64,000 nt of DNA from Halorubrum distributum JCM 10118 (GTDB lineage: Archaea; Halobacteriota; Halobacteria; Halobacteriales; Haloferacaceae). The stretch spans positions 1 to 64,000 of the forward strand of contig NZ_AOJN01000024.1 in assembly GCF_000337335.1 (NCBI RefSeq), given 5' to 3'. Positions 42,679 through 60,922 of the stretch are shown piece after piece. The translations under genes and the position numbers were made by a program. Every line of letters begins with the position of its first letter. Position 1 is the first letter of the stretch. Below the pieces are notes generated by a model. That model did no database searches. It was not told the DNA's origin and was given only the letters and a program-made list of their open reading frames with translations.

Positions 42679-43578
42679 TCACTCCGAGCTGATAACGTCT
42701 TGAATTTCTTGTTCGATTGCCGAGGTTATCTCATCTTGATCGGATTCTTGCTTTTGATTTCCCTGCTCAGACACAGTAGTTGAGTCTGGTTCATCCTCCG
42801 CTAGTCGCGGTTCAGTAGATTCTTTCCGAGACACATCTACCTCGGCGGTATCAATGCGTACAGCACTAATATCATCGGCTAAAAGAAGTCGCTGTCTCGG
42901 GCGACCAACCTCAACTGGGACCTTTTCCGTATAGATTACACCATCTGTTTCTAACGCCGTTTTTCGCCTCGAAATAGTTGCCTTGCTTGCGACACCCGTC
43001 TCCTCGGCCCACTTTCCTAAATCGTAACTGAGAGCACCACTCTGGGCCGCAGCTATTAGTGCCACTGACACGGCATCAAGTGAATCCATCTCCTCAAGTT
43101 TGGCCGCTTCAATGAGTTGTTCAAATTCAGAACGGGTCTGTAACCCGACGACGGATTCGAGTTTTGCGAGAAGTTCTGACCAAACAGGGGTATCTATATC
43201 AACACGAGATGCGGCTTCAAGAAGTGATTCGAACTCATCAGTGAGAATTGATCCGATCTCGTCATCAGAGAGCTTAACGAACCTCCTAACATTACCCATT
43301 CGTACATAGTAGTGTGCTTGGTTCCCGTCGATAACAGTAGTTGGTAAAGAGGGCTCCTCAGTCAGGTAGAGGGTCGCGTTGTGTTGTTCAAGTATCTCTT
43401 TAATCTTCGAATTCAAAGGGAATGACCTTCTAAGATTATCAGCAGTTGTCTTCGACACCAAAATATTCATGTCGCTCAAGTCAGACGCAATAAGCCACTC
43501 AGCAAATTCTGACACAGAAATATCATCCGAGATTACTATTTTTACCCCGTCTGATCCGTCGACTGATATCGTATCCAT
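42679..43578 (-). CDS. TbsP/DUF5821-type HTH transcription regulator
   Basis: The 299-residue protein has an N-terminal domain of VKIVISDDISVSEFAEWLIA type and a C-terminal winged HTH: ALSYDLGKWAEETGVASKAT, SRRKTALETDGVIYTEKVPV, then EVGRPRQRLLLADD. These blocks match the haloarchaeal DUF5821/TbsP family, whose Haloferax member regulates gapII. The ATG at 43578 is preferred because TTTTATAC (43606-43613) sits about 30 nt upstream. Base composition is unusually AT-rich for this genome. The acidic tail ends DEITSAIEQEIQDVISSE. Divergent from the TFB-like gene. Confidence 0.75.
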   Translation of the reverse strand: MDTISVDGSDGVKIVISDDISVSEFAEWLIASDLSDMNILVSKTTADNLRRSFPLNSKIKEILEQHNATLYLTEEPSLPTTVIDGNQAHYYVRMGNVRRFVKLSDDEIGSILTDEFESLLEAASRVDIDTPVWSELLAKLESVVGLQTRSEFEQLIEAAKLEEMDSLDAVSVALIAAAQSGALSYDLGKWAEETGVASKATISRRKTALETDGVIYTEKVPVEVGRPRQRLLLADDISAVRIDTAEVDVSRKESTEPRLAEDEPDSTTVSEQGNQKQESDQDEITSAIEQEIQDVISSE

Positions 43579-43605
43579 AGTGAATGACAATACCTCAACG
43601 TAACT

Positions 43606-43613
43606 GTATAAAA
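43606..43613 (-). promoter_or_regulatory. TATA box for the TbsP-type regulator
   Basis: TTTTATAC on the minus strand lies about 28-35 nt upstream of the ATG at 43578 and supports that start. Confidence 0.5.
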
Positions 43614-43747
43614 TGTTCTGTTGGACCCATGGGATACGAAGGACAGCGCCATTCTAAACGTGGAAAGGAAGTAGAAGAGTCAAGATGTTACGACCAACCC
43701 AGCTTACAACTAGTAGCTCTGAGCATGTCAGCAACCAGGGGACAGGG

Positions 43748-43773
43748 GTGAGTCGATACCATTATTGACTCAC
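43748..43773. promoter_or_regulatory. Perfect inverted repeat at the TFB-like promoter
   Basis: GTGAGTC (43748-43754) and GACTCAC (43767-43773) are perfect inverted copies separated by 12 bp that include a TATA-like ATTATT (43761-43766). This places the dyad over the likely core promoter, 20-45 nt upstream of the ATG at 43793. A second AT-rich TTTATATA (43779-43786) is too close to the ATG for normal use. The dyad fits an operator, perhaps for the divergently encoded HTH regulator. Confidence 0.5.
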
Positions 43774-43792
43774 ATCAGTTTATATACCAGAC

Positions 43793-44836
43793 ATGAGTGA
43801 GGAGTTTATTGAGGAGATTGACGATATTCTCTCAGATGTTCTCAGCGATGTCGATGCCACGTCTTCAGCAGAGATAGAGCAGAACATCACGTTCGGACAG
43901 TCGGTGTCTGCTGAGCGGCAAACCGCGATCGTTGATGATGGGATCGACCAGTTAGCGGCTGAGCTGGATGTTCCCGCGGCGACGGTCGATCTTGCAAAAT
44001 CTCTGCGCGATCAGTACCGTGATCAGCGCGGAGACCTCATCGGAACCGCGCTCGAATTAGTCGCTGCTTCATGCTTGTACTGCGCAGTCAAAGTCACAGA
44101 AGTCCCGTTGGATCCAACTGACTTCGTTACCGCGGACGATACTGTGGTGACCCGGAAAGCATTACTTCGACGGTCGAAAGATATCGCCAGTACCGTCGGA
44201 CTCGACCCGTCCGCGTTCTTCGGCAGCGGACAGTATGTGGACCGGTACTGCGACGCGCTCGACGTGAGTGACGCAGTCAACGAGCGTGCACGCGAGATCA
44301 TCGAAATCACAGAGGAATCCGGGCTGTCCAGCGGGAAAAGCCCGTCCGGCTGGGCCGCCGCGGCCGTGTACAACGCGTGTCTCGACGTCGGTGAGAAACG
44401 GACGCAACAGGAACTCAGTGGGATAGCGAACGTCTCGGAAGTAACGATCAGAAACCGGTATCAGGAACAGCGCGCCGGCCTGCGGCAGGCCGAACCGCTC
44501 CCGGCTGACCCGATCAAAGTTATCGACCACGTCGCGGGTGCAAGCGAGGTCGGGTCGGCAACCAGAGACCTCGCGGAACTGTTGATTGAAAATGCACGGG
44601 CGGACGAGTACCCTGTTGATAAAGAAGCGACGCTGTGGGGGCTCGCGGCACTCCGGCGAGCAAGTCAACTGACAGATGGCGACATCAAAATCAAAACGCT
44701 CTCTCAATACACGGACGAAAGCTCGGATGAAATATCCTCACGAGCGAGACGGTTGCGCTCTGTCTTGGATCACCGTGAGTTGAACGACTCCCGCTTCAAA
44801 CACACTCAGCAAGCGAGCGAGTTCGAACAGGACTGA
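43793..44836 (+). CDS. TFB-like factor lacking the zinc ribbon
   Basis: The 347-residue protein has cyclin-like repeats of transcription factor B: one around 45-140 (LIGTALELVAASCLYCAVKV), one around 160-235 (SPSGWAAAAVYNACLDVGEK, then VSEVTIRNRYQEQRAGL) and a third helical block (about 240-325: EATLWGLAALRRASQLTDGD). The N-terminal zinc ribbon that recruits RNA polymerase is absent: there is no CxxC. It is replaced by an acidic segment EEFIEEIDDILSDVLSDVD. Likely an island-specific promoter factor or a competitor of cellular TFB. Confidence 0.75.
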   Translation: MSEEFIEEIDDILSDVLSDVDATSSAEIEQNITFGQSVSAERQTAIVDDGIDQLAAELDVPAATVDLAKSLRDQYRDQRGDLIGTALELVAASCLYCAVKVTEVPLDPTDFVTADDTVVTRKALLRRSKDIASTVGLDPSAFFGSGQYVDRYCDALDVSDAVNERAREIIEITEESGLSSGKSPSGWAAAAVYNACLDVGEKRTQQELSGIANVSEVTIRNRYQEQRAGLRQAEPLPADPIKVIDHVAGASEVGSATRDLAELLIENARADEYPVDKEATLWGLAALRRASQLTDGDIKIKTLSQYTDESSDEISSRARRLRSVLDHRELNDSRFKHTQQASEFEQD

Positions 44837-44999: not shown

Positions 45000-47900
45000 A
45001 TGACCTCGCCGACCCGGCGCGGTTTCCTGTATGGTCTCACACTCACTGGCGGTGTCGCTGCAGGGTGTTCCACCGCCGGGTTGGTCACGGCACAGGAGAC
45101 GTCGATTGGTGACTCGCGGATGGACCAGTACGACGCCGCGAACACCGGGTACGCACCGAACGAACGTGGGCCGCGGAGTAATCCGCGGGAACTGTGGCGT
45201 TCCGACGCCGGTGACGCACTCATCGGTTCCGCCGCAGTCGTCGATAGCGTCACATACACGGCGGATGAGACCGGGACTGTTCGTGCTCTCGACGCCGTCA
45301 CCGGAATGGAGCAGTGGGCGGTCGATCTCGACGAGGAGATCGTTACATCCCCGGTTATTGCCGGTGAAATGGTCTGCGTTACGACGGGTGAATCACTGCA
45401 CGCACTCGACGTGAGTGATGGCGCTGAGAGATGGGTCGAAACGATCGGTGCCGACCCGTCATCCCCGATAGTGACCGACGGGGTGATCTTCGTTGCCGGG
45501 GGAAACACCGTACACGCGTTCGCTCTTGATGGAACGGCTGCAACGGCCGTCGATCTGACGGGTGAGATTGTCTCGACACCGGCAGTCGACGGATCCACGT
45601 TGTACGCCGCGACTGACGCGGGCACGGTGTACGCGTTCGACGTCGAGCGGTCGACCAGTTCTGTGACGCTCACCGAAAGGTGGACGACCAGTACGGTGAT
45701 CGACCGGCGACCGACCGTCACGGTTTCAGGCGGAATACTGGTCGTTACCGGGGCGAGTCCGGGTGAGGGCGAACAGGGGCGCGTCTACGCACTCAGTGCG
45801 GACACCGGAGAGGACCAATGGGCGTTCAGTACCACGAGATGGATTGAGAGCGGGGCCGCGATTGATGATGACACCGTGTACGTCGGCGGGGATAACGGCG
45901 ATGTCGTTGCATTAGCGGCGGAGTCGGGGGCGGAGCGCTGGCGGTTCAATGCGAACGACTCGTGGAGTTTCCTCTACTGGGGGCCCGGTGTGTCGGGCGG
46001 GCTCGTGGTTACCGACGACACGGTGTACGTCGGGAGCGAAGACTACAACCTGTACGCGATCGATGCGGATACGGGTGCCCCGCAGTGGCGGTTCCCGACT
46101 AGTGACGCGATTGTGTCGACGCCGACGGTCGTCGACGGGATCGCGTTCGTTGGGAGCACTGACGGCGCGCTGTACTCGATCACGTCGCCTGAAGCGTCAC
46201 CGGTTCCCCTCGACGGGGGCGCTGGAGGTGCCGGTGTTGAAACCGATTTTGACGACTCGAATACCGGCGACGGCGGGGTCCTAGGATTCAGTTTGCCGAA
46301 CGGTCTATCGGGGCTTGTCACGTCACCAGTCACGCTGCTCGTCCTCGCCATCGGACTGCTGTACGGAATTGCGTCGATCGCGTTAAACGACAGCGACGGA
46401 AACGACACGGCGTCGACGGGATCGGCGGCCGAGGCCCAATCGACGCCAGCAATCTATAGAGGATCTGCATCGTCTATAACCGTCGAATCGGACACTGAGT
46501 CAGGGACACCTGTTGAATCGGCCGGCAGCGTTGCGTCAGGGGCAGCCGATGAAGTACGGGGCGAATCACCCGACGACAGGGGTGACGGGTCGCAACGCAC
46601 CGAGCTACTCGACGAGTTACGCGAGTTGGACCGCAAGTGGTCGGAGATCGACCGGACACTGCTTTACTCCGTCGGTAACCATCACCCCGACGAGTACGAA
46701 GACATCTTCGGGAGTCTTGACGCCGCACTCGCCGTCGCCGGCGTCCACGATCCAGACGACTCCGCAACGCCGTCAAATGAGACTGACTCCGACCCCGCAG
46801 ACACCACCTCCAGCACGTCCACGCGTGACACCGACGAGGCGGCGGAAACCACGGAAACGTCGTCCGAGACTCCCAATTCCCAGACAAGGACAAAAAAGAC
46901 AACCACAGGGATGCCATCACGCGAGGCGCTCATCAACGAGTTACAAGCACTCGCGGAGGACTGGGACACAATCGACCGGAAACTGTTGTACTCCGTCGGG
47001 AACCACCACCCGGACGAGTACGAAGACGTCTTCGGGAGTTTCGACGCGGCGCTCGTTGCCGCCGACATCGCCGACCCGGACACAGCGACGGCGGTCACCG
47101 CGGACAAATCGTCACCATTCGATGAGCACGACGAACTCATCACCGAACTCCAAGAACTCGCGGAGGACTGGGACACGATTGACCGGAAACTGTTGTACTC
47201 CGTCGGTGATTACCACCCGGACGAGTACGACGACGCGTTCGGAAGCGTCGATGCCGCTCTCTTCGAAGCCGGACTCACAGACACTGACACGACCGATGAC
47301 GACACAGCCGCCGAGACCGCCGAGAACTCGACGGATACAAGACCCGCGTCGACTACCGGGAAGCAACCGCAGTCAGTCGATTCGAGCACCATGACCGATC
47401 TTCACTCGAACGAACTCGCCGAGCTGTACGTCGCGTTCGACCGGTTCCAGCACCTGTTAACCGAGCTCGCAGGCGAACTCGACACCGACGGGACCGCACC
47501 GATGGAGCAGTGGGCGGACGCTGTCGCCGACCACTGGGGCAGCGGCGGCCCGGCCGGCGCGCCGAACTACGGCGTTCAACAGCGCGACCGGAACGACTTC
47601 AGCATCCGCGACTACCGCGACGCGCACGGCGACGGCGAGCGCGTCACGGACTTCCATCACGTCGAGTTCGCCCCTGCCGACGACCGGATCCAGCACTTAC
47701 TCGGCGACGCGATCGACGACTGGGACCACGCCGTCCCCGTCGCACCCGACTCGAACACGCCGCTCCCCGTCGCTATCGCAAGCACCGAAGCGCTCGACAC
47801 AGCTATCGAACTGCTCGACGAATTCCCCGCGTACCCCGACGCCGACCGCCCAGCACCGGACGACACCGACGTGAGTCCGGACAGCCCGACCCTGCCCGAC

Positions 47901-48869
47901 GGGCGCGTCGACACGCTCACCGTTACTGTCCTCAACCACGACCCGAACCCCGGGTCGAAACGCGACGCCCGTCTCCAAGTCGCACTCACAGACGGCACCG
48001 AAGTCCCGCTCGACATCTGGTCCACACACGACCTCTCGCTTGACTGGAGCGTCGGCGAGACGTACACGATCGAGCAAGCTCGGCACAAAAGCTGGGAGAC
48101 AAGCACCGGGACCGGACACCAACTCAGCAGCACGAAAGACTTCCGCGTCATGCCAACTGACGCTGGCTCTGCGGGCAACACGCCGGACATCAACCCGCCG
48201 TCACGGTCGAGCGCGGATACGAGTTCGACGTCCGGACGTAGCCGGGACACCAGTACGAGCAGTGGAAAGAGCGCTTCGAACAGTGGCAGAAGTCGAACGA
48301 GGAGTAGTGGCACCCCAAGCCGTGGCGACCTCCTTGACGCGATGCAGCACGTCGGCGAGACGATCGACCGGCCGTTGAAAGCGAGCGACGTGAGCGACAC
48401 CACAGCGTATTCCGTGAATGATATCACCCGCGTGTTCGGTTCCTGGCAAAACGCCCTCGACTCAGCCGGCATCGACAACAAAGCCCGACTCATCGACGAC
48501 CTGCACCGCGTCGCCGACACCCTCGGACACCGCCCCACCACCACCGAAATGAACGAGCACGGGCACGTCTCCGCCACCACCTACGCCACGTACTTCGGCA
48601 CGTACACCGCCGCCGTCGAACAAGCGTTCGACGAAGCAGAAGCCACTCGTTCACCGACCGGCACGGACACCGCAGATCAGGCCGACGCCACGAAGACGGG
48701 ATCCGGCGCGAGCACAGCGAGGAGTGGGGGGACAACCGCACGGGACACTGGAGACAGCGACCAGGCCACCAGCGGTGATGAGAGCACTGGCACGACCCCT
48801 GACGACGACGGGATTCTCGGCGATATTATGAACGATTTCGACGAATTTTCTGATTCCGAAGCGGAGTGA
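45000..48869 (+). CDS. Giant Tat lipoprotein: PQQ propeller, TM, HARE repeats, OB-like domain
   Basis: The 1289-residue protein starts with a twin-arginine signal and lipobox (TRRGFLYGLTLTGGVAAGC). Residues about 40-415 form a PQQ/BamB-like beta-propeller (repeats such as VRALDAVTGMEQWAVDL and LYAIDADTGAPQWRFPTSDA). A membrane helix follows (about 437-464). The C-terminal part should be cytoplasmic: three near-identical homing-endonuclease-associated repeats (about 535-581, 643-692, 711-760; core LLYSVGNHHPDEYEDVFGS), an unknown block (800-940), an OB-like segment (970-1054), two more repeats (1110-1157, 1164-1211) and an acidic tail DDGILGDIMNDFDEF. Domain calls are by eye; no homologue of this full architecture is known to me. 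Confidence 0.75.
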   Translation: MTSPTRRGFLYGLTLTGGVAAGCSTAGLVTAQETSIGDSRMDQYDAANTGYAPNERGPRSNPRELWRSDAGDALIGSAAVVDSVTYTADETGTVRALDAVTGMEQWAVDLDEEIVTSPVIAGEMVCVTTGESLHALDVSDGAERWVETIGADPSSPIVTDGVIFVAGGNTVHAFALDGTAATAVDLTGEIVSTPAVDGSTLYAATDAGTVYAFDVERSTSSVTLTERWTTSTVIDRRPTVTVSGGILVVTGASPGEGEQGRVYALSADTGEDQWAFSTTRWIESGAAIDDDTVYVGGDNGDVVALAAESGAERWRFNANDSWSFLYWGPGVSGGLVVTDDTVYVGSEDYNLYAIDADTGAPQWRFPTSDAIVSTPTVVDGIAFVGSTDGALYSITSPEASPVPLDGGAGGAGVETDFDDSNTGDGGVLGFSLPNGLSGLVTSPVTLLVLAIGLLYGIASIALNDSDGNDTASTGSAAEAQSTPAIYRGSASSITVESDTESGTPVESAGSVASGAADEVRGESPDDRGDGSQRTELLDELRELDRKWSEIDRTLLYSVGNHHPDEYEDIFGSLDAALAVAGVHDPDDSATPSNETDSDPADTTSSTSTRDTDEAAETTETSSETPNSQTRTKKTTTGMPSREALINELQALAEDWDTIDRKLLYSVGNHHPDEYEDVFGSFDAALVAADIADPDTATAVTADKSSPFDEHDELITELQELAEDWDTIDRKLLYSVGDYHPDEYDDAFGSVDAALFEAGLTDTDTTDDDTAAETAENSTDTRPASTTGKQPQSVDSSTMTDLHSNELAELYVAFDRFQHLLTELAGELDTDGTAPMEQWADAVADHWGSGGPAGAPNYGVQQRDRNDFSIRDYRDAHGDGERVTDFHHVEFAPADDRIQHLLGDAIDDWDHAVPVAPDSNTPLPVAIASTEALDTAIELLDEFPAYPDADRPAPDDTDVSPDSPTLPDGRVDTLTVTVLNHDPNPGSKRDARLQVALTDGTEVPLDIWSTHDLSLDWSVGETYTIEQARHKSWETSTGTGHQLSSTKDFRVMPTDAGSAGNTPDINPPSRSSADTSSTSGRSRDTSTSSGKSASNSGRSRTRSSGTPSRGDLLDAMQHVGETIDRPLKASDVSDTTAYSVNDITRVFGSWQNALDSAGIDNKARLIDDLHRVADTLGHRPTTTEMNEHGHVSATTYATYFGTYTAAVEQAFDEAEATRSPTGTDTADQADATKTGSGASTARSGGTTARDTGDSDQATSGDESTGTTPDDDGILGDIMNDFDEFSDSEAE

Positions 48870-48923
48870 GTTCCGCACAACAACATCCGTTCCGACCGAG
48901 GTCCAAATGGAGTTCCCTCGCCG

Positions 48924-50261
48924 TTACGCCGTGGTCCAGATTCGACCGTGTGGCCGCCCGTGAACGCTGTCCATCGCCATGAGTACTTGCGTGACGTACT
49001 CCCACAGTTCAGTCCGGTCCCGATCGCCAACGTCAACGGCGTCCCACACGGCCTGCTTGACGTGCTGTGAACGCGCGACCGTGCGCTCGCGGATATACCG
49101 CGCAGCGGCGACGGCACCGTCCACCACTCCCGACTCCGTGTACGCACCGAACTCCGGTGACTCCGTCTCCTCCTGACCGGACACCGTATCGGAGTCTTGT
49201 TCTGAACGCACAGCCCGGGCTCCGGTCGAGCCTGACGCCTCACGAACGGTGGTTTCAGCCGCATCGGACCGGTCCCGACGCTCGGAATCACCGGCCTCTG
49301 CCGACCGCGGCGAATCCGTACCCTCATCGGCACGCGCTGTCACCCCGTCGTCCGTCTGCGCGTCAGTCTCCACATCACCGACGGCCTCCGTACTTGCATC
49401 CTCCTCACCGCCGTCCGCCTCGTCAACCAACGACGAGAACGACGAGGCGATCTCGCCGAGCATCCCGCCCTCGTTTTGAATCTCATCGAACGAGACGTCC
49501 GGTGCCGGGCGCTCTGCATCGGAACTGTACTCGGCTAAATGCCGCCGCGGATCCAACTCCGCGTTGATAAACAACGGTTCGAAATCAGCATCTTCGAAGA
49601 TCCGGTCGTACTCCGCGAGGATACCTTGCAGTGCAATCTCACCGTCTACTGTGACCGTATACGTCTCATCGATCGTCGCGTGCAAGTCTCCGTTCGACGC
49701 GGTGTCGTGACTCTGCAGCTGCTCCGACGCAGTGCTCACCGGTTCGATGAGATGACTGCGAAGGAATCGCGTCAAAAACCCGATTTTACTCTCATCAACT
49801 GTTGAAACGGCACCGAACAACTCTCGCGGCGTGAACCGGTCCCGGTCCAGCATCGCTTCAGTCAACGCGCGGTACTCATCGTACGTCGCCACCAACCACA
49901 ACATGTCGTACACGATCGGGTTGTACTCCTCGGGCGGCGCCGGAATGATATCGAACAGGAATGCGAGATCGTCCGGCGTGAACCCCTGTTGAAGTAACTG
50001 GCGCTCCCCGGACATCCCGCGGTTCAACTGGATTTCAAACAACCACCGATACCGGATCACCAAGCGAACCAACGCCCACTCACGGTGCGCCGAATCAAAA
50101 TAAATCGCGTACACACCGGTCGCAGCGGACTTCGCCGGCACAATCCGGAGTGACTCGATCGAATCATCACGGAGCACGTCCTGCGGCTGGCGTGTCAACT
50201 CATCACGAAACGTCGGACCTTCTTTGATAATTGACACAGGGAACCCGGAGCGATTCGTCAT
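48924..50261 (-). CDS. Uncharacterised protein, 445 aa, last gene of SMC operon
   Basis: An N-terminal domain (about 1-250, starting MTNRSGFPVSIIKEGPTFRD) has mixed alpha/beta character. Then come a segment like the shared tail motif (EGGMLGEIASSFSSLVDE, about 268-285), a long acidic low-complexity linker (about 288-380) and a C-terminal helical, winged-helix-like domain (AAARYIRERTVARSQHVKQA). No catalytic motif is recognised. It is the fifth gene after helicase, small protein, ATPase and 171-residue protein, with a gap of only 65 bp. Confidence 0.65.
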   Translation of the reverse strand: MTNRSGFPVSIIKEGPTFRDELTRQPQDVLRDDSIESLRIVPAKSAATGVYAIYFDSAHREWALVRLVIRYRWLFEIQLNRGMSGERQLLQQGFTPDDLAFLFDIIPAPPEEYNPIVYDMLWLVATYDEYRALTEAMLDRDRFTPRELFGAVSTVDESKIGFLTRFLRSHLIEPVSTASEQLQSHDTASNGDLHATIDETYTVTVDGEIALQGILAEYDRIFEDADFEPLFINAELDPRRHLAEYSSDAERPAPDVSFDEIQNEGGMLGEIASSFSSLVDEADGGEEDASTEAVGDVETDAQTDDGVTARADEGTDSPRSAEAGDSERRDRSDAAETTVREASGSTGARAVRSEQDSDTVSGQEETESPEFGAYTESGVVDGAVAAARYIRERTVARSQHVKQAVWDAVDVGDRDRTELWEYVTQVLMAMDSVHGRPHGRIWTTA

Positions 50262-50325: not shown

Positions 50326-50841
50326 TCAGCTGCTCATCATGTCGCTATCGAAGCTATCGACGATCTGTGAGAGGATATCCTCGTTGTCCGTGGTGCCGTC
50401 GGCCTCGTGGAACTTATCGATGAACGAAACGAGCCCGTCACGCGGCGGGTTCGCCGCGTCGCCGAACTCGCGGTCTAACCGCATCGCCCCGGCGTGCGCG
50501 TACCGTGCGAGCACCTCCAGTTGCGTTTCCGGTTCCACGAGCGCGCTCGAATCGCTCGTGTGCTGATACGCGATCGACGCGGCGACCGCCCGGTACGTCG
50601 GCTTGTCAGTGAAATGCATCCACAGCATTTCGCCTTGCGTTCCCTCGTCGGTTTTCCCTTGGAACTCTTTGTCGGCGTACGTGTTCACCGTCGGCCGGTC
50701 GCTCACGGCGTACCCGACGCTCGCCGAGAACACGAAGAAATCGACGAGGCTATCGAATATCTCCCAGTCGCTCACCATCTGATCGTAAATGTCGTGCCGG
50801 TGGTAGTACTGCCGTGTCGTCGCCGTACTGGAGTCGCTCAT
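50326..50841 (-). CDS. SMC-operon accessory protein, 171 aa
   Basis: The ATG overlaps the stop of the SMC-like ATPase gene by four bases (ATGA), so it is coupled to it. The protein is mostly helical (QMVSDWEIFDSLVDFFVFSA; HAGAMRLDREFGDAANPPRD), with no zinc or catalytic motif. Its size and position resemble middle components of ABC three-component or Lamassu-type systems. The C-terminal tail NEDILSQIVDSFDSDM matches the tail motif of other island proteins. Confidence 0.7.
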   Translation of the reverse strand: MSDSSTATTRQYYHRHDIYDQMVSDWEIFDSLVDFFVFSASVGYAVSDRPTVNTYADKEFQGKTDEGTQGEMLWMHFTDKPTYRAVAASIAYQHTSDSSALVEPETQLEVLARYAHAGAMRLDREFGDAANPPRDGLVSFIDKFHEADGTTDNEDILSQIVDSFDSDMMSS

Positions 50842-52877
50842 TGATTCACCTTCTGAGAAATCTCTTCTTCAACGATCCGGGTCCGCGGGTACGACGTGTC
50901 ACCGTCGCCGTCGTCGAAATCAAGCCGGTACTGCCGACTGGCGATCTCGTTCATCTCGTTCGCAACCGGGCCCCGCCACTGCGAGTCCGTGACGAGCACC
51001 ACGACCTGCTCGGCCATCCGCGGGATCACGCGACTCACCGTCCGCCGATGGTCGTCGTCTAACGCCCCGAACGGCGAATCCATCACGATCGGGTAAATCC
51101 CGCCGCTGAAATACTCCGCGTCAGTATCCGACTCGTACCGTTCCCGGGCAATCTGCACGAGACTCCCGATGAACGTCAGACTCGCAATCTGCCGTTCCCC
51201 ACGCGACTTGTCGACCTCCAAGTACTCACCCTGCAACTGATCGCGGATCCGGAGTTCGAACTCGTCCGTAATCTCGGCCTCATATCCCTTCGTCGCAATC
51301 TCATCAAACGTCTTCGACACGAGATCGTTCGAGTACTCCCGCACCTGATTCTGGAGCTGTTCGAACGACGCTTCAAGTTGCTGTTGGACCTTCGACGTCG
51401 CCTGCATCCGTCGCCGCGCAAGCTCGGCTTGACTCTCCTCTTGCCGCGCCTCATCGATCTCCTCGCCGATTTCTTCAAGCCGTTCCTCGCGCGTCTCGAT
51501 ATCACGCTCCAAATCCCAAATCTCGCGTTTCAACTCCTCACGTTCAGATTTCTTCCGGTTCCGCGCCGACTCCAACTCGGACGGCGTTTCGCCCGTCTCG
51601 GGATCCGTGATGTTCATCTCCTCTAACTCGCCTTGAATCTCGTCTAACTGCTCGTCAACGGACGTGAGTTGATCCCGTAATTCCGACCGCTCCTCAAGCA
51701 GCTCGTCAACCGTGTCCAAATCCTCCGCCTGCTCGTCCTGAATACTGGTGAGATGCGAGATAATCCTGATCGCCGCCTGATCAACCCCGTTCTCCGCTGC
51801 ATCCGACCGGTACGCCTCAACGCTGTCGTACGGGTGTGTCCCTTCCTCTAACGGTCGGCCACAGATACACTCGCCTTGCGCGAGGAGCTTGTCCACGAAC
51901 TGATTCGACACCTCTGACGGGATCTCACCGCGTTCGCGCAGATCGTCAAGGTCCTGTGCCGTTGCTTCGATCGCTGGCATCACGAACGGGAGGTGACCCT
52001 TCTTACTGATCTCCGCGTCAATCGACTCGTTGATCTCCGCGATTTCCGCCTGTAACGCGTCCTGCCGCGACTCCAACCGGTTCCGTTCTTCTTGTAACTC
52101 CGCTGCTTCTTCGATCCCTTCGAGCTTCCGCTCGATCTCACTGATTTCCTCTCGAAGCCGTTGGCGGCTCTGCTTTTTCGTGTCGATCGACCCGGTCAAA
52201 TCCTCAACCTCGTCTCGAAGTTCACTGCGCGTGTCGATCAGGTCAGATAACTCCGAGTTCCCGTGTTCCTGCACTTCCGATTCGAACCGTCCCTCAACCT
52301 CACCGAGATGCCGGATCGACCGCTCGATGATGGTGAGGCCCATAATATTTTGAATCGCCTGCTTCACCTCGTCTTGACTGTGCCCCTCGGAGAGCTGTGT
52401 GATGTACTCGCCGTCGAAAAAGAACAGGTCGCTCAACCGGTCGGGGAGAATCTGCTCGATCGACCGCTGCGGGTTCTGTCGCGTCCCGCGTTTCCCGTCC
52501 GCCGTCTCGTAGGACAACGACAGGTCCTCATCGACGATCTCGCCGAGATAATCGTCCGTCGCCTGCCGCTGATACTCGTAGGACCGCGTGACTTCGTAAT
52601 CGACGTCCTCGTGTTCGAACTCCAGTGCCACTTCGACTGACACCGTCTCACCTGGGTCCACCTCAGCGAGCGCGCCTTGACTAGCGAGCTTGTCAGGTCG
52701 CAAGTTAAAATTCGACTCGTCGTACAGCACCCACAGGAACGCGTTTTTCAGCGTCGTCTTCCCGGACCCGTTCTGCCCGTGCACAACGGTGACGTTCTGA
52801 TCGTCACCTAACGCGAACTCCACGGTTTCAGACCGGAACTGCCGGAAATTCGTGAGGTGCAGTCGATGCAGTTGCAT
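50838..52877 (-). CDS. SMC/DndD-like ATPase with zinc-hook cysteines
   Basis: The 679-residue ATPase begins QLHRLHLTNFRQFRSETVEF, with Walker A GQNGSGKT (residues 34-41). ILPDRLSDLFFFDGEYITQL is characteristic of DndD/RecF-related ABC ATPases. Two coiled-coil arms (about 195-300 and 365-520) flank a hook with C337-x-C339 in ECICGRPLEEGTHPY. The C terminus has the ABC signature region (SRGERQIASLTFIGSL) and Walker B VMDSPFGALDDDHR. Likely a DNA-sensing or remodelling ATPase of a defence system; no dndC or dndE is nearby. Confidence 0.85.
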   Translation of the reverse strand: MQLHRLHLTNFRQFRSETVEFALGDDQNVTVVHGQNGSGKTTLKNAFLWVLYDESNFNLRPDKLASQGALAEVDPGETVSVEVALEFEHEDVDYEVTRSYEYQRQATDDYLGEIVDEDLSLSYETADGKRGTRQNPQRSIEQILPDRLSDLFFFDGEYITQLSEGHSQDEVKQAIQNIMGLTIIERSIRHLGEVEGRFESEVQEHGNSELSDLIDTRSELRDEVEDLTGSIDTKKQSRQRLREEISEIERKLEGIEEAAELQEERNRLESRQDALQAEIAEINESIDAEISKKGHLPFVMPAIEATAQDLDDLRERGEIPSEVSNQFVDKLLAQGECICGRPLEEGTHPYDSVEAYRSDAAENGVDQAAIRIISHLTSIQDEQAEDLDTVDELLEERSELRDQLTSVDEQLDEIQGELEEMNITDPETGETPSELESARNRKKSEREELKREIWDLERDIETREERLEEIGEEIDEARQEESQAELARRRMQATSKVQQQLEASFEQLQNQVREYSNDLVSKTFDEIATKGYEAEITDEFELRIRDQLQGEYLEVDKSRGERQIASLTFIGSLVQIARERYESDTDAEYFSGGIYPIVMDSPFGALDDDHRRTVSRVIPRMAEQVVVLVTDSQWRGPVANEMNEIASRQYRLDFDDGDGDTSYPRTRIVEEEISQKVNQ

Positions 52878-53108
52878 CTATTCCGGGATCTCCTCTTCGA
52901 CGATCTCTCGGATCTCCGGGATGATCTTGTGCGGGCGGCGCATGTGGAGCTGCTCGCTTTCCGCCTGTAACGTCCGCTCTCGAATCCGTCGCAGCGTCTC
53001 GTCCCCAATATCAGCTGTTGACCCCTGATCGTCCATGCTTCGAACGTATCTGTCCCTCTGTCTTAATGATTGTTCCAGCTTGGAGACACTCCCGTCACCG
53101 ACAGTCAC
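52878..53108 (-). CDS. Small charged protein between helicase and ATPase genes
   Basis: The product has 76 residues if the GTG at 53108 is used (MTVGDGSVSKLEQSLRQRDR) or 52 if the ATG at 53036 is used. It is highly charged and helical (ETLRRIRERTLQAESEQLHM) and ends in EIREIVEEEIPE. Its TAG directly precedes the ATG of the ATPase gene, so translation is coupled. Probably an adaptor of the ATPase or helicase. Confidence 0.55.
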   Translation of the reverse strand: MTVGDGSVSKLEQSLRQRDRYVRSMDDQGSTADIGDETLRRIRERTLQAESEQLHMRRPHKIIPEIREIVEEEIPE

Positions 53109-53150: not shown

Positions 53151-54575
53151 TTACAACTGCCGTAAGTTGAACGCGCGCTTCAACTCCCCGATCGCTCCGG
53201 CGTCCGTCGAGATGCCTTGCACATCTGCATCAGGATGATTCCGCGCTGCCTCCCCGAACAGATTCACGCGCTCCAGCTCTTGCCGAACGAGATTCCGCTC
53301 CGTTTTGAACCGTTCGTCACCCGCCGTCGCGTCCCGGATCTCGCTCGGCGGTGCCACGATAAAATCGTGAATCACCGCGTGTTGCTTTCCCGGGTGTGTC
53401 CGGAGAATCCGGCCGCGGCGTTGCACGAACTGCCTGGGGTTCGACGAACTCGCCAGCACGTATGCCGTCCGCGTCGCCGGCACGTCAACTCCTTCATCGA
53501 GACACCGAATCGCCACCAACGCTTCCACGTCACCAGCATCGAACGCCGCGAGCAACTCCTCGCGTTCTCCGCGGTCCTCATCTGCTGTGAAGCGCTTCGC
53601 ACGAATCCCGAGCTTCCGCAGCGTAGACAGCGCTGCGTCCACGTGCCGCTCCGTCCGGTCCCCCACGCTCCCCTCAACCGTCCCGTCCCCGCAGTACACC
53701 AGCGTGTGCTCAACTGGGCCTTGCTCACCGATCAACTGCATTAACCGGTCGAGTTTATTCTCCGCGCTCCCGATCAACCGCGCCCGCTCGAACAACGCGA
53801 ATTTCAAATCCGTCTGCTCGTTGTTCTCGGCGTCGCCCAAGTCACCGCCGTACCGCTGCACCAACCGCGCGATCTTTCTGGACAACCCGAGGTACTCGTC
53901 TTCTTCTTCCGGCGTTAACTCGACGACATGCGGGATGTAGTAATACTCACACAGGTTCCCGTTCCGGATCGCTTCCTGCAACGAGTACTCGAACACGACA
54001 TCACCGAAATACTCGAACAGCGCTTCCGACCCCTCGTCGTCGTAGAAGCGTTGCGGCGTCGCCGACAGGCCGAGCCGCATCGGGATACTTTCCGGTAACC
54101 GTTCCCGGCGATGCGCCGCCCCGAGGTGATGCACCTCATCGCCGATCAGCATCAGCTCCTGCCGGTTGACCCGAGTGAGGACCCGTTGAAACGCGTCCGA
54201 CGTAAACGTCTCGTGTGTCGTGATCACGACGAATCCGTCACGGAACCCGCGATTGAACTCCGCCACTTGCCCCTCGAACTGATCTTGCCACGTCGCCCGG
54301 GACTCGTACGCACGCACCGGACTCACGCCGAAATCCTGCACGTCCTCACGCCACTGATCGACGAGGTGCTGATACGGCACCGCAATAATCAGGCCGAGTT
54401 TCCCGTCGAGTTGCGCCGTGATCGTACTCGCCGCCATCAACGCAGTCACCGTCTTCCCCGTTCCCGTCGCCATCTGTAACACGCCTTGCGCACCGCTTTC
54501 CACCCACGACCGGATCGCATCCTGCTGATACGACCGGGCTTCAACCCACTCCGGATTCGACAGCGCAAACCCCAT
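53151..54575 (-). CDS. SF2 helicase of XPB/SSL2 type
   Basis: The 474-residue helicase has QMATGTGKTVTALMAASTI (Walker A, about 34-52), the DEVH motif in LIGDEVHHLGAAHR, LGLSATPQRF, and the second RecA-like domain with DEGVDVPATRTAYVLA and QFVQRRGRILR. The N terminus (RSYQQDAIRSWVESG) is the Q-type start of XPB-like helicases. No nuclease domain is fused. It is the first gene of the SMC operon; the divergent mcrB-like gene begins 133 bp away. Confidence 0.88.
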   Translation of the reverse strand: MGFALSNPEWVEARSYQQDAIRSWVESGAQGVLQMATGTGKTVTALMAASTITAQLDGKLGLIIAVPYQHLVDQWREDVQDFGVSPVRAYESRATWQDQFEGQVAEFNRGFRDGFVVITTHETFTSDAFQRVLTRVNRQELMLIGDEVHHLGAAHRRERLPESIPMRLGLSATPQRFYDDEGSEALFEYFGDVVFEYSLQEAIRNGNLCEYYYIPHVVELTPEEEDEYLGLSRKIARLVQRYGGDLGDAENNEQTDLKFALFERARLIGSAENKLDRLMQLIGEQGPVEHTLVYCGDGTVEGSVGDRTERHVDAALSTLRKLGIRAKRFTADEDRGEREELLAAFDAGDVEALVAIRCLDEGVDVPATRTAYVLASSSNPRQFVQRRGRILRTHPGKQHAVIHDFIVAPPSEIRDATAGDERFKTERNLVRQELERVNLFGEAARNHPDADVQGISTDAGAIGELKRAFNLRQL

Positions 54576-54707: not shown

Positions 54708-57092
54708 ATGCGCTCGACGCTCCTTCTCGCGTCTCTCACCGACTCACCCGGTCTCTTCGACACGTACGTGCGACCCGGGATCGACCGCCGCGACTTCCCG
54801 GCCGATCTCCCTGCGACCCACGCCGACCCCGTCCACTGCCTCCCAGTCCCCGCCGACACGGATCTCGACCCCTACCACGCCGTCGGCGACACGATCCTCT
54901 TCGACGTCAACGGCGACCAATACACGTGGGTCGCAACCGTCAACGACGTTCGAACCGCCCCCGGACTCACCGCAGGATCCAACCACTCCGACTCGTCTGC
55001 GACCTTCACCGACACGGTGCTACTGCTCAGCGTCCCACTTCCCGTCACCATCAACCGGCGTGATCTGCACGACACACTCGACACCGACACCACGCAGCTA
55101 CTCCACCGACTCACCGAGACCGAACACGCAGCCGTCGAAGACGACTACGCCACCATTCAACGATTTCTCCTCACGCACCGCGACGACCCAGACGTGTGGA
55201 TCGACACGCGCCCCGATGATACTCCGCACTCGCCCGGCGACACCGCCCGCCTCACGAATCCGCACCTCACCGTCACCGACCACGCAGTAGACGCCGCACC
55301 CGGTGACATCGTCCTCCATCTCTCCAGTGACACGCACACCATCACCGGCACATCAGTCATCGCCACCACCGACACCCCGGACGACACCGCAGCCACCGTT
55401 ACCGTCGGCGAGTACCACGCACTTGATCCCGCAATCCACCTGTTCGAGGACGTACTTGATGACCCGTCGTACAGCACCCGTCTCAACCACATCGCCGACT
55501 CCCACGAGCAGCTCCTCTACGACGCCAACCGCGAACTCGTCGCCGACACGCAGTTCACGCAGTGCCCGCCCGCCCTGCTCGAATTATTCATCGCGGAAGC
55601 CCCGGCGCTCCTCGACCAGCTGAAAACGTGGCACTACCAAGTACAACGCCCCGCGCCCACCGACACGTACACGTCGATCGAGGAAGCGCTCGTCGACATC
55701 CGCGTCCGCATCGCGTTCAGCGACCACGGCCTCGACTGGTTCGCCGACGAAACACTCGCCACCGTCATCACGCACCTCACCGACACGCTTCCGACCATCC
55801 AGCCGGACAGCGACGTCACGCCGCGCGAAGACACGTACTGCGAGATCCTCCGTGACGTGTTCGACAGGACCGAACCGCATCTCACAACAACCGTGTCACG
55901 CCTCGGGATCGGCGCCGTCCAACCACTCAGCGAACCGGAAACCCTGTTTTTTGTCTTATTCCGCGATCTGCAACGCACCGCCGACACGACCGAGTACGTC
56001 AAACCCGTGAACGTCCGCGCCGTCCTCGACGAATCCTACACCGTCACGACGCCGCGCCGCCCGACGACACCGCCGCAAGGCCAACCGCTCGACGCTGCCG
56101 CGAAACCCGACCAGGCCGACGACATCGCCCGGCAACTCGACACGACCGGACAAATCGTGTTCTACGGCCCGCCCGGCACCGGGAAGACCTACACCGCCGC
56201 GCAGTTCACCCGGTGGTGGCTCCACCAACAACCCGGGATCGACCCGACCACCGACCAGTTCGAAACCGTCACGTTCCACCCGTCGTTCACGTACGAGGAC
56301 TTCATCGAGGGCCTGAAAGCCGACAACACCGACGACGGCGTCGTCTACGACTACCAGCCCGGCGTGTTCAAAGAATTCGTCGACGCCGCCCGCGACGCGT
56401 ACCGCACCGCGACCGACGCGCCGCCGCGGTACGTCATGATCATCGACGAGATCAACCGCGGGAACCTCGCGCAGATCTTCGGCGAAACCATCACCGGCCT
56501 CGAATACGACAAGCGGCTCGACGCCGCCAACGAAACCAGCGTCTCACTCGCGCACTCCGGGCAACCGTTCACCATCCCGCCAAACCTGTACCTCATCGGC
56601 ACCATGAACACCGCCGACCGATCCATCGCACTCGTCGACGCCGCCCTCCGCCGCCGCTTCCGCTTCCTCTCATTCCCCCCGAACTTCGACGCCATCATCG
56701 AAGACGACACCACGCCGTTCACCTCCATCGACGCGCTCCGCGCCGCCGCCAACACCCCCGGGCACGCCAACCGCCTGTTCGCACTGACAATCCTCGCCGT
56801 CCGCAAATTCAACGACACGATCCTCACCACCGCCGACCTCGGCAAAGGCAAGCAAATCGGGCACTCCTTTTTCTTCGGGAAAACCACCGGACCGGAACTC
56901 GTTGACACGTGGCGGTTCGAACTCCTCCCACTCCTCGAAGAGTACTTCTACGGACAGTTCGACCGGATCCGCGACACACTGTTCGACGGCGGCGGCCACC
57001 GCCTCATCAACTACGACAGCGAAGAGATCCGATCGTTCGACGCCGCCACGCTCACCGCCGAACTCGCTGCGCTGCTCGACGTCGACGAGTAA
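54708..57092 (+). CDS. mcrB: McrB-like GTPase with EVE-like N-terminal part
   Basis: The 794-residue AAA+ protein has Walker A FYGPPGTGKT (GPPGTGKT at 487-494), Walker B MIIDEINRGNLAQIFGE (about 577) and the McrB-type sensor GTMNTADRSIALVDAALRRR (about 631). The N-terminal half contains two PUA/EVE-like strand patterns (GDTILFDVNGDQYTWVATV near 58; GDIVLHLSSDTHTITGTSVI near 199), plausible readers of modified bases. GTP-driven DNA translocation with an McrC nuclease partner is expected; the partner follows after six bases. Confidence 0.85.
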   Translation: MRSTLLLASLTDSPGLFDTYVRPGIDRRDFPADLPATHADPVHCLPVPADTDLDPYHAVGDTILFDVNGDQYTWVATVNDVRTAPGLTAGSNHSDSSATFTDTVLLLSVPLPVTINRRDLHDTLDTDTTQLLHRLTETEHAAVEDDYATIQRFLLTHRDDPDVWIDTRPDDTPHSPGDTARLTNPHLTVTDHAVDAAPGDIVLHLSSDTHTITGTSVIATTDTPDDTAATVTVGEYHALDPAIHLFEDVLDDPSYSTRLNHIADSHEQLLYDANRELVADTQFTQCPPALLELFIAEAPALLDQLKTWHYQVQRPAPTDTYTSIEEALVDIRVRIAFSDHGLDWFADETLATVITHLTDTLPTIQPDSDVTPREDTYCEILRDVFDRTEPHLTTTVSRLGIGAVQPLSEPETLFFVLFRDLQRTADTTEYVKPVNVRAVLDESYTVTTPRRPTTPPQGQPLDAAAKPDQADDIARQLDTTGQIVFYGPPGTGKTYTAAQFTRWWLHQQPGIDPTTDQFETVTFHPSFTYEDFIEGLKADNTDDGVVYDYQPGVFKEFVDAARDAYRTATDAPPRYVMIIDEINRGNLAQIFGETITGLEYDKRLDAANETSVSLAHSGQPFTIPPNLYLIGTMNTADRSIALVDAALRRRFRFLSFPPNFDAIIEDDTTPFTSIDALRAAANTPGHANRLFALTILAVRKFNDTILTTADLGKGKQIGHSFFFGKTTGPELVDTWRFELLPLLEEYFYGQFDRIRDTLFDGGGHRLINYDSEEIRSFDAATLTAELAALLDVDE

Positions 57093-57098
57093 CCCGGC

Positions 57099-58391
57099 AT
57101 GCCCACACCGCCCGACACGACCGGTGACCCCGGCGCGACCGACCCGCACCCACCCCGCAACGAGACGCACGTCATCACCGAGTACGACTCCACTCCACCG
57201 ATCCCGCTGTCCGAACAGGCGCGAGCGTACCTCCGCGATGAAATCAACGGCGGCACCGACCGCGACGGTGACCGCATCAACGTCACGTACACGCCCGACG
57301 GCGACGCCGTTCTCACCGCTACGTCGTACGTCGGGCTCATCGCACTCCCGAACGGTCCGACACTCGAAATCCGGCCGAAGCTCCCCGCCACCAACCTCCT
57401 GTACATCCTGCAGTACGCCACCAACGTCTCCGCCGACACGTTCGACACCGACACGCAACTCCAAGCCGGCACCGTGTTCGTCGACGCGCTCGGCGTCCTG
57501 TACGAACGCGAACTCCAACGCGTCCGCAACCGCGGCCTCCACACCGACTACGTCACCCGGCACGCCACCGAACAACGCCTCCGCGGCCGCCTCGACATCC
57601 AACGCCAACTCCAACGCCAACCGCCCGTCCCCACCGAATTCGAATGCACCTACCAGGAGCTCACGCCTGACATCCCGATCAACCAAGCCATCCTTCAAGT
57701 CACCGACGCCCTCCTCCGCATGGTCACCGACGACCAGCTCACCAGCGCCCTCCAACGCCACGCCCACGCCCTCCGCCGAGACGTCACCCGCACCCACATC
57801 ACCCACAGCGACATCGCCACCATCGAACTCACCCGCCTCAACGACTACTACGACCACATCCTGCAGCTCACGAAACTCTTCCTCCGCAACAGCCACGTCG
57901 GCGACATCACCACCGGCACCCGCAACGCCTTCTCCCTGCTCGTCAACATGAACACCGTCTTCGAAAACGCCGTCACGCACGCCGCCGACACCGCCATCAC
58001 CGACCGTGACGGGTGGCGCATCACCCGGCAAGACAACAGCAAACAACTCATCCACGACGGCCGCTTCAACGTCACGCTCAAACCCGACTTCACTATCCGC
58101 GACCCCGACGGTGCCGTGCAACTCATCGGTGACGCCAAATGGAAACACGGCACCCCGCCCAACGCCGATTTCTACCAAATGGCCGCCTACCAACAAGCCC
58201 ACACCGCCCCAAGCCTCCTCGCATACCCGTCACAAGGCGGCACCGTCACCGACACCTGCACCATCGTCAACGGCCACCCACTCCACCTCATCGAACTCCC
58301 AACCACCGACACGTACCCGTCATACGACGCGTTCCGAACCGCCGTCACCACCGCGATGACCACCGCCATCGACACCGCAGTCACAAAATAG
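57099..58391 (+). CDS. mcrC: McrC-like PD-(D/E)XK nuclease subunit
   Basis: The 430-residue protein matches McrC: VGLIALPNGPTLEIRPKLPA near 85, LLYILQYATNVSADTF, and a C-terminal nuclease with D330 in LKPDFTIRD and D345-A-K347 in LIGDAKWKHGTPPNADFYQM. It should cut DNA when activated by the McrB-like GTPase. The intact catalytic residues suggest an active Type IV-like system against modified DNA. Confidence 0.88.
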   Translation: MPTPPDTTGDPGATDPHPPRNETHVITEYDSTPPIPLSEQARAYLRDEINGGTDRDGDRINVTYTPDGDAVLTATSYVGLIALPNGPTLEIRPKLPATNLLYILQYATNVSADTFDTDTQLQAGTVFVDALGVLYERELQRVRNRGLHTDYVTRHATEQRLRGRLDIQRQLQRQPPVPTEFECTYQELTPDIPINQAILQVTDALLRMVTDDQLTSALQRHAHALRRDVTRTHITHSDIATIELTRLNDYYDHILQLTKLFLRNSHVGDITTGTRNAFSLLVNMNTVFENAVTHAADTAITDRDGWRITRQDNSKQLIHDGRFNVTLKPDFTIRDPDGAVQLIGDAKWKHGTPPNADFYQMAAYQQAHTAPSLLAYPSQGGTVTDTCTIVNGHPLHLIELPTTDTYPSYDAFRTAVTTAMTTAIDTAVTK

Positions 58392-58565: not shown

Positions 58566-58586
58566 CACTGATCTGTGAGGAAGTGT

Positions 58587-59690
58587 ATGGGAACCGACGA
58601 ATTAGATGATGAGTTGGCTGACGACATCCTAGACGCTGCGAAAGGACAAGACCCGCCGAAATCGGTCAAGTGGTTTGCAGAGCAGTTCGACATCGGTCCC
58701 AAAGAGACACAGCGTTATCTCACGGCGTGGATCGACGGTGGGTGGATGAAACCGGTTCAAGACAGCGACGGAACGTGGCTGTTTGTCGGCGAAGACGTTG
58801 GGAACTCTCCGTTCAACACGGCTGACAACGTCTTACGAGATATTAACCAGGTCATTCTCGGCGCGGAATTGACTTCGCCAAAACCGGTGTCTTGGTTTGC
58901 GGAAAAAGCGGATACAGCACACTGGAAGGCCCACTGGGCACTCAAAGAACTCAAAAAGACTGGCAGTGTGACCGAACACAACCTTGACGACGTACCGGTC
59001 TACTCCCCACCGCACGTAGAGGCCGTCTCTGACACGCCTCAACTATACCACACACGACATGACACCACAAAACTAGTTTTTCCCAACGGCGACGCACACG
59101 AAGCCACGGTAACTACTGTTGGTGACTGTACAGTCGCTTCCGCATCGAGCAGACATGCTGCTGCCGTGTTCGTCGATGATGAGTTCTCGTTCCTCATTGA
59201 CGAAGACGAACCAATCAGCCGCGTTGCAATCGGAAAAAACGGACACGTAGCATACCACTCAGGCGAGCATCGAGAATCCGTCTTCCACATCACAACGTGG
59301 ACAGGAGAACACCTCCTCGAAGAGCGTGTAGAAGTCGCCCGGTCGCCAGTGTTCACACCTGACGGCGACCACGTTGCCTACTGGCGATTAACCGATCACA
59401 CGGTGTACATTTACAACACAGCAACACGCTCCGTATCCGGCGAGTTCGACACGACAAACATCCGACGAACAAATATTGGCCTCCACGGTGTGACCCGCAA
59501 CGACAGGCCAGCCTTCCAAATCACCGACACCTACGGGCCCGGCGACGACGAAGTACTCGGACACATTTCCCCCACAGGCGAACTACTCGATACCGACCCC
59601 ACCCCAGCTTCAAACCGCACTGAACAAGCAGCTCCCAGCGACGACGCGATCTTAGACGAGATCATGGACGAGTTCGAACACGGACTCTAA
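58587..59690 (+). CDS. Double winged-helix / beta-propeller protein
   Basis: The 367-residue protein starts MGTDELDDELADDILDAAKG. Two winged-helix-like domains follow (about 20-70: SVKWFAEQFDIGPKETQRYL; about 90-130: SWFAEKADTAHWKAHWALKE), then WD40/TolB-like beta repeats (about 145-330: HVAYWRLTDHTVYIYNTATR). The acidic tail DDAILDEIMDEFEHGL matches the tail of the giant lipoprotein. It could be a DNA-binding scaffold or regulator of the island. Family not recognised. Confidence 0.65.
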   Translation: MGTDELDDELADDILDAAKGQDPPKSVKWFAEQFDIGPKETQRYLTAWIDGGWMKPVQDSDGTWLFVGEDVGNSPFNTADNVLRDINQVILGAELTSPKPVSWFAEKADTAHWKAHWALKELKKTGSVTEHNLDDVPVYSPPHVEAVSDTPQLYHTRHDTTKLVFPNGDAHEATVTTVGDCTVASASSRHAAAVFVDDEFSFLIDEDEPISRVAIGKNGHVAYHSGEHRESVFHITTWTGEHLLEERVEVARSPVFTPDGDHVAYWRLTDHTVYIYNTATRSVSGEFDTTNIRRTNIGLHGVTRNDRPAFQITDTYGPGDDEVLGHISPTGELLDTDPTPASNRTEQAAPSDDAILDEIMDEFEHGL

Positions 59691-59937
59691 CACCGACAAC
59701 TGACCGCTTCCCCAACACACTCCTCCCGCGCACTCTAGATCCCGTTATTAGTATTCCGTGCCCCCATAGCAGTATGAACCCGTCCTGCATGACTGTAGCG
59801 CCTGACGTGAACCGTCACCTCAACGCCATCTAGTCATAACGTCTCAAACTGATTGGCACCCGTGAACGAGTCGTACTATCCTGTCACGGTGAACACGCAC
59901 TGGTTCGTTGTAAGACACCTCACTTCGATCCTGTACG

Positions 59938-59944
59938 TATATTA
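59938..59944 (+). promoter_or_regulatory. TATA box for the 59969 gene
   Basis: TATATTA ends 24 nt before the ATG at 59969, consistent with a leaderless transcript. The rest of the gap 59691-59968 shows no supported feature. Confidence 0.5.
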
Positions 59945-59968
59945 CACACCCATCCAACAAATCGCGTA

Positions 59969-60922
59969 ATGGCAGACGAGTTCATCGACGACATCGATGC
60001 TCATCTCAACGATATTCTCCCGGAGGATCCCGAGCAAATCCGAGAAACCGTCGCCCAAGAAGAGAAAGCCGAGATGATCCAACTCCTCCAACACGCCGCC
60101 GACACACTCGGGAAATCCCCCACCGTCACCGAATTCGACGCCCTCAACCTCGACGTGTCATCCGACGCGATCCGGTACGCATTCGGCACCTGGAACGACG
60201 CGAAAGACGAAGCCGGACTCGAAACCTTCCAACGCGGCACGTCCACCCCGATCCGTGAAAACTATTTCAAAACGATCGACACCACGGAGAAAGCGTACTG
60301 GCTCGGCTCCCTGTTCGCACACTCCACCGTTTCACACAACAACCAGGCTGACTACTTCGCGCTGCAAGTCGTCCGCGTCGTCAGCAAAGAACACTTCGTC
60401 CGCGGCTTCGCCGACGCCATCGACTCGGAGTACTCGATCAACACGTACTCAAACCCGGACCGCCCGCAAGACCAGCAACAAGTCCAACTCCAAATCAGCA
60501 ACCCCACCTTCATCGACCACCTCACCGCCACCGGGTACCCGGACGCATCCAGCGACCCCAGCGACTTCCCCGAACTCGACGACGAGTACCGGCCCGCCTT
60601 CATCCGCGGCTACCTCGAATCCGCCGGGTACTTCCAAACCCAAGGCTGGCGGATCACCGTCGACACCCCCGACCGAGCCGACTGGCTCCGCGACGCCTTC
60701 GAATCGTTCGGCGCAAAACGCCCCACCATCTCCGAAACCACAGACAAAAAACCAAAAGTCAACGTCTCCAACGTCTTCGACATCAAATCCGTCTTCGAAA
60801 CCTGCTGGCCCGACCAACTCGACACCACCCCGTCATGGAACCCATACCCTGCCAAAATCCTCGATTACCTCGAAACCGAATACCCGTACCCAGAAAACGT
60901 CGCGTACCTCCGCGGCGAATAG
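59969..60922 (+). CDS. Homing-endonuclease-associated repeat plus degenerate LAGLIDADG protein
   Basis: The 317-residue protein starts MADEFIDDIDAHLNDILPED. One homing-endonuclease-associated repeat follows (about 34-88: LGKSPTVTEFDALNLDVSSD, then FGTWNDAKDEAGL). Two LAGLIDADG-like motifs then appear: AYWLGSLFAHSTVSHN (about 108-123) and FIRGYLESAGYFQTQGW (about 212-228). The acidic catalytic residue of the first is replaced (AHS), and the second has GYLESAGY rather than G-x-x-D-A-D-G. It may bind DNA without cutting it, a domesticated homing endonuclease. Confidence 0.65.
   Translation: MADEFIDDIDAHLNDILPEDPEQIRETVAQEEKAEMIQLLQHAADTLGKSPTVTEFDALNLDVSSDAIRYAFGTWNDAKDEAGLETFQRGTSTPIRENYFKTIDTTEKAYWLGSLFAHSTVSHNNQADYFALQVVRVVSKEHFVRGFADAIDSEYSINTYSNPDRPQDQQQVQLQISNPTFIDHLTATGYPDASSDPSDFPELDDEYRPAFIRGYLESAGYFQTQGWRITVDTPDRADWLRDAFESFGAKRPTISETTDKKPKVNVSNVFDIKSVFETCWPDQLDTTPSWNPYPAKILDYLETEYPYPENVAYLRGE

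Follow-up and report, generated by a model that had tools for sequence, protein, structure and literature searches.

The 64,000-nucleotide window analyzed here (Halorubrum distributum JCM 10118, contig NZ_AOJN01000024.1, positions 1 to 64,000) holds an island built around genes of the PbeABCD type, and several otherwise unrelated proteins of this island carry the same short, acidic, amphipathic motif. Four core genes lie on the minus strand: a pbeA-like gene for a superfamily 2 (SF2) helicase of 474 amino acids (aa) (53151..54575), a pbeB-like gene for a 52-aa protein encoded between pbeA and pbeC (52878..53036), pbeC for a 679-aa CxC-type ABC ATPase (50838..52877; PADLOC PbeC, E = 5.5e-225), and a pbeD-like gene for a 171-aa protein (50326..50841) that overlaps pbeC by 4 bases. 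The small PbeB has the same place and a conserved sequence in 20 loci of clade A, the branch of Pbe loci to which the window belongs, and the PbeC hook, C337-x-C339, was invariant in six relatives. PbeA aligned to PADLOC PbeA only in the helicase part, from position 248; the nuclease half, with the N-terminal PLD/HKD domain, is absent.

An earlier, sequence-only reading had labeled the 171-aa protein an SMC partner. It is a DndE-fold PbeD, and its supposed SMC protein is the CxC ABC ATPase. The 171-aa protein matched TIGR04062 (dnd_assoc_4, DNA phosphorothioation-associated protein 4) below the model cut-off, and the core of its structural model aligned to DndE 7x4e with a Z score of 8.8 (VIA-align), the top three entries all being DndE (Z = 8.8, 7.8, and 7.7). 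Foldseek alone gave no significant match for the PbeD model. The protein ends in a tail (NEDILSQIVDSFDSDMMSS, 50329-50385, minus strand), where the model shows residues 155 to 169, beyond a disordered linker, as a helix of low confidence; L156 and I159 were invariant in a tail alignment of nine homologs.

In the parts of the literature covered here, PbeABCD is presented as an archaeal antiviral system and reported to block virus replication while virus DNA is not visibly cleaved (Xiong et al. 2019, PMC6459918), and DndE-fold PbeD fits into the CxC ABC-ATPase-DndE scheme (PMC10853773). The island resembles these systems in its CxC PbeC, DndE-fold PbeD, small PbeB, SF2 PbeA, and gene order. On sequence grounds, its core is a haloarchaeal branch of PbeABCD with a nuclease-less PbeA and, by membership, a putative antiviral role; we call it a variant because one defining part, the PbeA nuclease, is missing. 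No dnd modification gene was found among the scanned island proteins, no genome-wide search having been made. Other clade-A loci carry methylase-like genes or TGT/DUF6884 genes.

A motif shared by four island proteins

The motif is predicted to form a helix with the hydrophobic face I-L-x-x-I-x-x-x-F and a net charge of -4 to -7. All 13 tails tested look amphipathic, and most clearly exceed their shuffles. Copies were scored with a 15-column position-specific scoring matrix whose training set was 20 PbeD tails only. As the sequence-only reading had claimed, three proteins end in the motif: PbeD (NEDILSQIVDSFDSDM, 50338-50385, minus strand), a giant protein of 1289 aa (45000..48869, plus strand; copy DDGILGDIMNDFDEF at 48804-48848, 23.3 bits), and a winged-helix/propeller-like protein of 371 aa with a DUF7342 domain (58575..59690, plus strand; copy DDAILDEIMDEFEHGL at 59640-59687, 15.9 bits). 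A fourth copy, rated as weak in that reading, proved strong at 20.7 bits. It lies inside a 445-aa protein (48924..50261, minus strand; GGMLGEIASSFSSLV and predicted helix EGGMLGEIASSFSSL, at about 49428-49472) and recurs in all four family members, where G.LGEIA..F is invariant and the surrounding linker is unalignable. The structural model of the 445-aa protein, a poor one with a mean predicted local distance difference test score of 55.8, places a short helix at residues 268 to 276 inside a disordered stretch (228 to 368). These four copies are solid, and the sharing of the motif goes beyond chance.

The motif is also rare. A strict version, searched at the DNA level as IL..I[MVI]..F[DE] (I-L-x-x-I-[MVI]-x-x-F-[DE]), had three matches in the 3.3-Mb genome, exactly the three C-terminal tails of the island; the pattern was derived from these copies, and the count taken alone is partly circular, which the PbeD-trained test is not. 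In 147 related genomes it matched about 0.4 times per genome. Thirty matches in relatives were read, and almost every one lay inside a gene, in a short or shadow frame, or in noncoding DNA; the sole match at a well-supported gene end was the tail of a PbeD homolog (G029). Anchored to a stop codon, the pattern had one match in 293 genomes, located at another Pbe locus. A stop-anchored search of viral contigs for mimics of the tail gave 25 matches, nearly all in short or noncoding frames and none haloviral-looking. Recent duplication of tail DNA was rejected, as the three copies are written in different codons.

Clade A and the neighbors of its Pbe cores

A PbeC search of 392 genomes yielded 17 close relatives plus a set at greater distance. 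The clade-A set of 23 loci comprises close PbeC relatives, loci found via PbeD, and one further named genome; named genomes were scanned with a PbeC pattern, the PbeD alignment being too diverged for a pattern scan. Clade A is monophyletic with 100/100 support in a tree of 39 sequences. Its PbeDs end in the tail L-x-x-I-x-x-x-[FIV] with one clear exception, and the tail was found in 0 of 14 PbeDs from the sister branch (clade B). An annotated Natrinema plasmid locus, outside the training set, has a PbeD tail that scored 26.9 bits. Clade-A PbeAs, with one exception, measure 442 to 535 aa and are helicase-only in length in 20 of 21 loci (the direct domain scan covered the window protein alone), whereas clade-B PbeAs measure 655 to 715 aa in 15 of 15.

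We ran the matrix over 1,707 other genes, 388 of them within 14 kb of a clade-A PbeC and 1,319 elsewhere, taken from a simple composition-scored gene caller with approximate start positions. At 13 bits, 13 of the 388 neighbors had the motif at their C terminus, compared with 2 of the 1,319 (P = 2.4e-7). Because the 13-bit threshold was chosen after the scores were known, we report the range from 8 bits, a score reached by ~1% of ordinary genes, to 17 bits; the enrichment persisted throughout, as it did against shuffled tails. Both distant matches are homologs of bearers: one of the giant protein, 36 kb off in a clade-A genome (G311), and one 90% identical to a bearer in G109. At least one tailed neighbor was present in 11 of the 23 clade-A loci at 13 bits and in 13 at 10 bits; G150 (5.0 bits) and G372 (9.9 bits) fell under the threshold, though their tails look alike by eye. 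The sequence-only reading had named equal frequency at the termini of random acidic haloarchaeal proteins as an outcome that would undermine it. Among acidic C termini alone, the motif occurred in 11 of 90 neighbors versus 2 of 391 others (P = 3e-7), and a generic acidic haloarchaeal C terminus was rejected on this comparison.

The domains next to the tail are diverse. Pfam and sequence comparison identified HNR repeats in the window giant and in G426, OB-like regions in G332 and G311, PadR in G109 (406 aa), G150, and G266, HHH in G422 and G114 (134 aa), and a DpnI-type helix-turn-helix (HTH) in a second G109 protein (115 aa); the bearers in G188 and G126 are short proteins (120 aa each) of no known family. 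The scanned bearers showed no nuclease domain, and several have transmembrane (TM) segments. The winged-helix/propeller protein had no full-length homolog in the 147 other genomes. The motif is not confined to C termini: a 179-aa protein in G363 has an N-terminal copy at 27.6 bits. The expectation that one terminal or linker-borne helix of docking type would be common to unrelated but associated genes was supported, also beyond the window, with recurrence at C termini near tailed PbeCD in other genera.

Within the giant protein, a Tat/lipobox start and a PQQ propeller precede a single TM segment, which is followed by the HNR/OB part and the tail; from this order, the propeller is predicted to lie outside and the tail inside. 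Compared with a homolog in G129, 88 of 97 residues are identical in the last HNR part, 21 of 59 in the linker, and 15 of 21 in the tail, so the tail has been kept while the linker drifts. The giant (45000-48869) and the G129 giant (30840-35948, joined L076-L078) have the C-terminal half in common and the N-terminal half swapped; beside the TFB-like gene, this half is a propeller and TM segment in the window and an SF2 helicase in G129. In G029, near a TFB homolog, a 199-aa protein (L079:15510-16109) contains the motif internally as SFLEKIEAEFDS, a strong copy at 18.1 bits. In G005, where the search found no clade-A PbeC, a tail-bearing 115-aa protein (L221:3954-4301), possibly a remnant, is encoded close to a clade-B Pbe core.

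Co-inheritance, named in the sequence-only reading as something that could refute it, also favored association. In a family sample of 148 genomes, 10 of them clade A, the 445-aa family (2/2) and close homologs of the TFB-like protein (3/3; P = 2e-4) occurred only in clade-A genomes.

A candidate docking helix of clade-A PbeABCD

The motif probably serves clade-A PbeABCD as a modular docking helix, by which accessory DNA-binding proteins attach to the core. The motif itself, its clade-specific occurrence on PbeD, its enrichment among neighbors of differing domain content, and its selective conservation are observed; binding, partner, and consequence are what we infer. PbeD holds its predicted helix on a flexible linker behind the DndE-fold core, and accessory proteins encoded in these islands, though unrelated, present the same helix, usually at the C terminus following an acidic linker, in some cases at the N terminus or within a linker, without being tied to one position. 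Most have DNA-binding domains (HNR, OB, PadR, HHH, and DpnI-type HTH) or sensor-like parts (propeller and membrane anchor). The PbeC/PbeB/PbeA core might offer a common groove that receives each helix, or the helices might bundle with the PbeD tail; the docked proteins would then supply the DNA-scanning ATPase with DNA recognition or signals. Clade-specific residue columns, sought in order to locate such a socket, numbered 75 in PbeC and 40 in PbeA and gave no clear answer. Since clients resemble DNA-binding or sensor proteins and the scan detected no nuclease among them, we favor a role in target choice or triggering.

The near-complete absence of the PLD nuclease from clade-A PbeA suggests that tail-based recruitment in trans replaced the fusion in cis, and the recruited proteins may have taken over roles formerly fused to PbeA. 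A more far-reaching version, which we offer tentatively and regard as somewhat less likely than its opposite, is a plug-in code in which a docking socket replaced the fused nuclease and any protein gaining the ~15-residue helix becomes a client. Sensors, membrane anchors, DNA-binding adaptors, and TFB-derived factors could then be joined to the DNA-scanning ATPase as exchangeable specificity modules.

The strongest competing explanation is that the tails bind each other, mixed helical bundles of PbeD and accessory tails forming a homotypic assembly device. PbeD carries the motif itself, as expected of a plug that joins like with like, the same sequence class is found on PbeD and clients, and the amphipathicity described above would suit a bundle. 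The helices are, however, strongly acidic and lack basic partners, and the 445-aa family has a single internal copy; on balance, we think this explanation unlikely. Far less credible still is that the tails are degrons or a generic acidic C-terminal feature of haloarchaea. They are indeed C-terminal, acidic, and hydrophobic, but N-terminal and internal copies exist, the motif is confined to one type of defense island, and it is nearly absent from ordinary genes, including those with acidic C termini, so that the generic form is already contradicted. We give equally little credence to chance or a few C-terminal exchanges within one mosaic accessory family, with the tail hitch-hiking on neighboring domains: many large bearers have HNR/OB/PadR modules in common, but the domain directly before the tail varies (HNR, OB, PadR, HHH, DpnI_C, or propeller), the 371-aa window protein and the 120-aa proteins of G188 and G126 have no detected link to such a family, and the tail is retained as linkers diverge.

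Several observations weigh against a docking helix or narrow its reach. Because many large bearers combine HNR, OB, and PadR modules in differing orders as a mosaic set, independent origins of the tail must be fewer than the number of proteins. In 12 of the 23 clade-A loci, no accessory protein has a C-terminal tail that reaches 13 bits, some on short contigs and some with weaker copies. The PbeD of G048 has no clear tail, and G403 combines a tailed PbeD with a full-length PbeA in one locus, a combination that fits the tail arising before the PbeA nuclease was lost. A bacterial PbeD on a Ruegeria plasmid (L279:8042-8473) ends in ILDDITELANF, tail-like in kind, so the origin of the tail may predate the haloarchaea.

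Three further copies proposed in the sequence-only reading are weak in the window and also count against a docking helix common to all these proteins. The TFB-like protein (43793..44836, plus strand; PF00382) lacks a Zn ribbon, the TFIIB model matching only from position 118, and the peptide MSEEFIEEIDDILSDVLSDVD stands in its place. The opening motif claimed for this protein is present as a peptide (IDDILSDVLSDVD, from 43817 on the plus strand) and is conserved in two close homologs, but its 7.2 bits make it borderline. No matrix support was obtained for the other two. The 317-aa HNR and LAGLIDADG-like protein (59969..60922, plus strand; PF18780) begins with an amphipathic peptide that, by eye, follows its own conserved pattern, EID-x-IL-x-E-x-LP, to which the matrix has no meaningful match. 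The TbsP-type regulator (42679..43590, minus strand; PF23336) has a weak tail-like end of 7.7 bits, a level of score seen in ~1% of ordinary genes.

If the docking helix is real, its tail code would tie hypothetical genes scattered across haloarchaeal islands to a single defense machine, further accessory parts could be found through their tails, and there would be a handle on how PbeABCD chooses its targets. No tail of this kind was described in the open literature searched. Encapsulation or cargo-loading peptides are a comparable arrangement, being terminal amphipathic helices on flexible linkers that are common to unrelated clients. Unlike in those systems, a shell or compartment gene was not noticed in the island, and the hub would be a DNA-scanning ATPase complex. 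Amyloid signaling motifs of NLR-effector pairs are likewise short motifs common to unrelated neighboring proteins of immune loci; as far as the source is covered here, they adopt a cross-beta amyloid fold (PMC12261475), whereas the acidic, amphipathic, predicted helical sequence of the clade-A motif speaks against a beta-amyloid. The portions of PMC10853773 and PMC6459918 covered here mention neither a tail nor a nuclease-less PbeA. Clade A differs from the systems described there in both respects: in 20 of 21 loci its PbeA has no PLD/HKD nuclease domain, and its PbeD has a docking-type tail that is also found on diverse accessory proteins.

Other genes around Pbe loci

The HNR/LAGLIDADG family adjoins clade-A PbeC in five loci (the window, G048, G363, G426, and Natrinema). 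In the LAGLIDADG-like domains of the window protein and its relatives, A[HRN]S and LES[AS]G replace the D-containing motifs, as judged by eye; because the usual acidic residues are missing, these domains look like DNA-binding rather than cutting domains.

Clade-A Pbe loci often adjoin TGT-like, DUF6884, and queC/D/E-like genes, as in G422 (L201:3322-8632) and Natrinema (L275:7612-9615), with similar genes in G126, G311, and G150. One TGT near a clade-A Pbe core weakly matches DpdA. Such neighbors are suggestive of a pairing of clade-A Pbe with 7-deazaguanine modification. The window queC (40633-41094), at the island edge, retains only model positions 72 to 209, its N-terminal part being missing. 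McrBC-like gene pairs adjoin clade-A Pbe cores in three genomes (window 54708-58391, L205:1600-5713, and L076:15364-18992), and in G132 the gene after pbeD is a GmrSD gene, as it is, judged by similarity, in G126.

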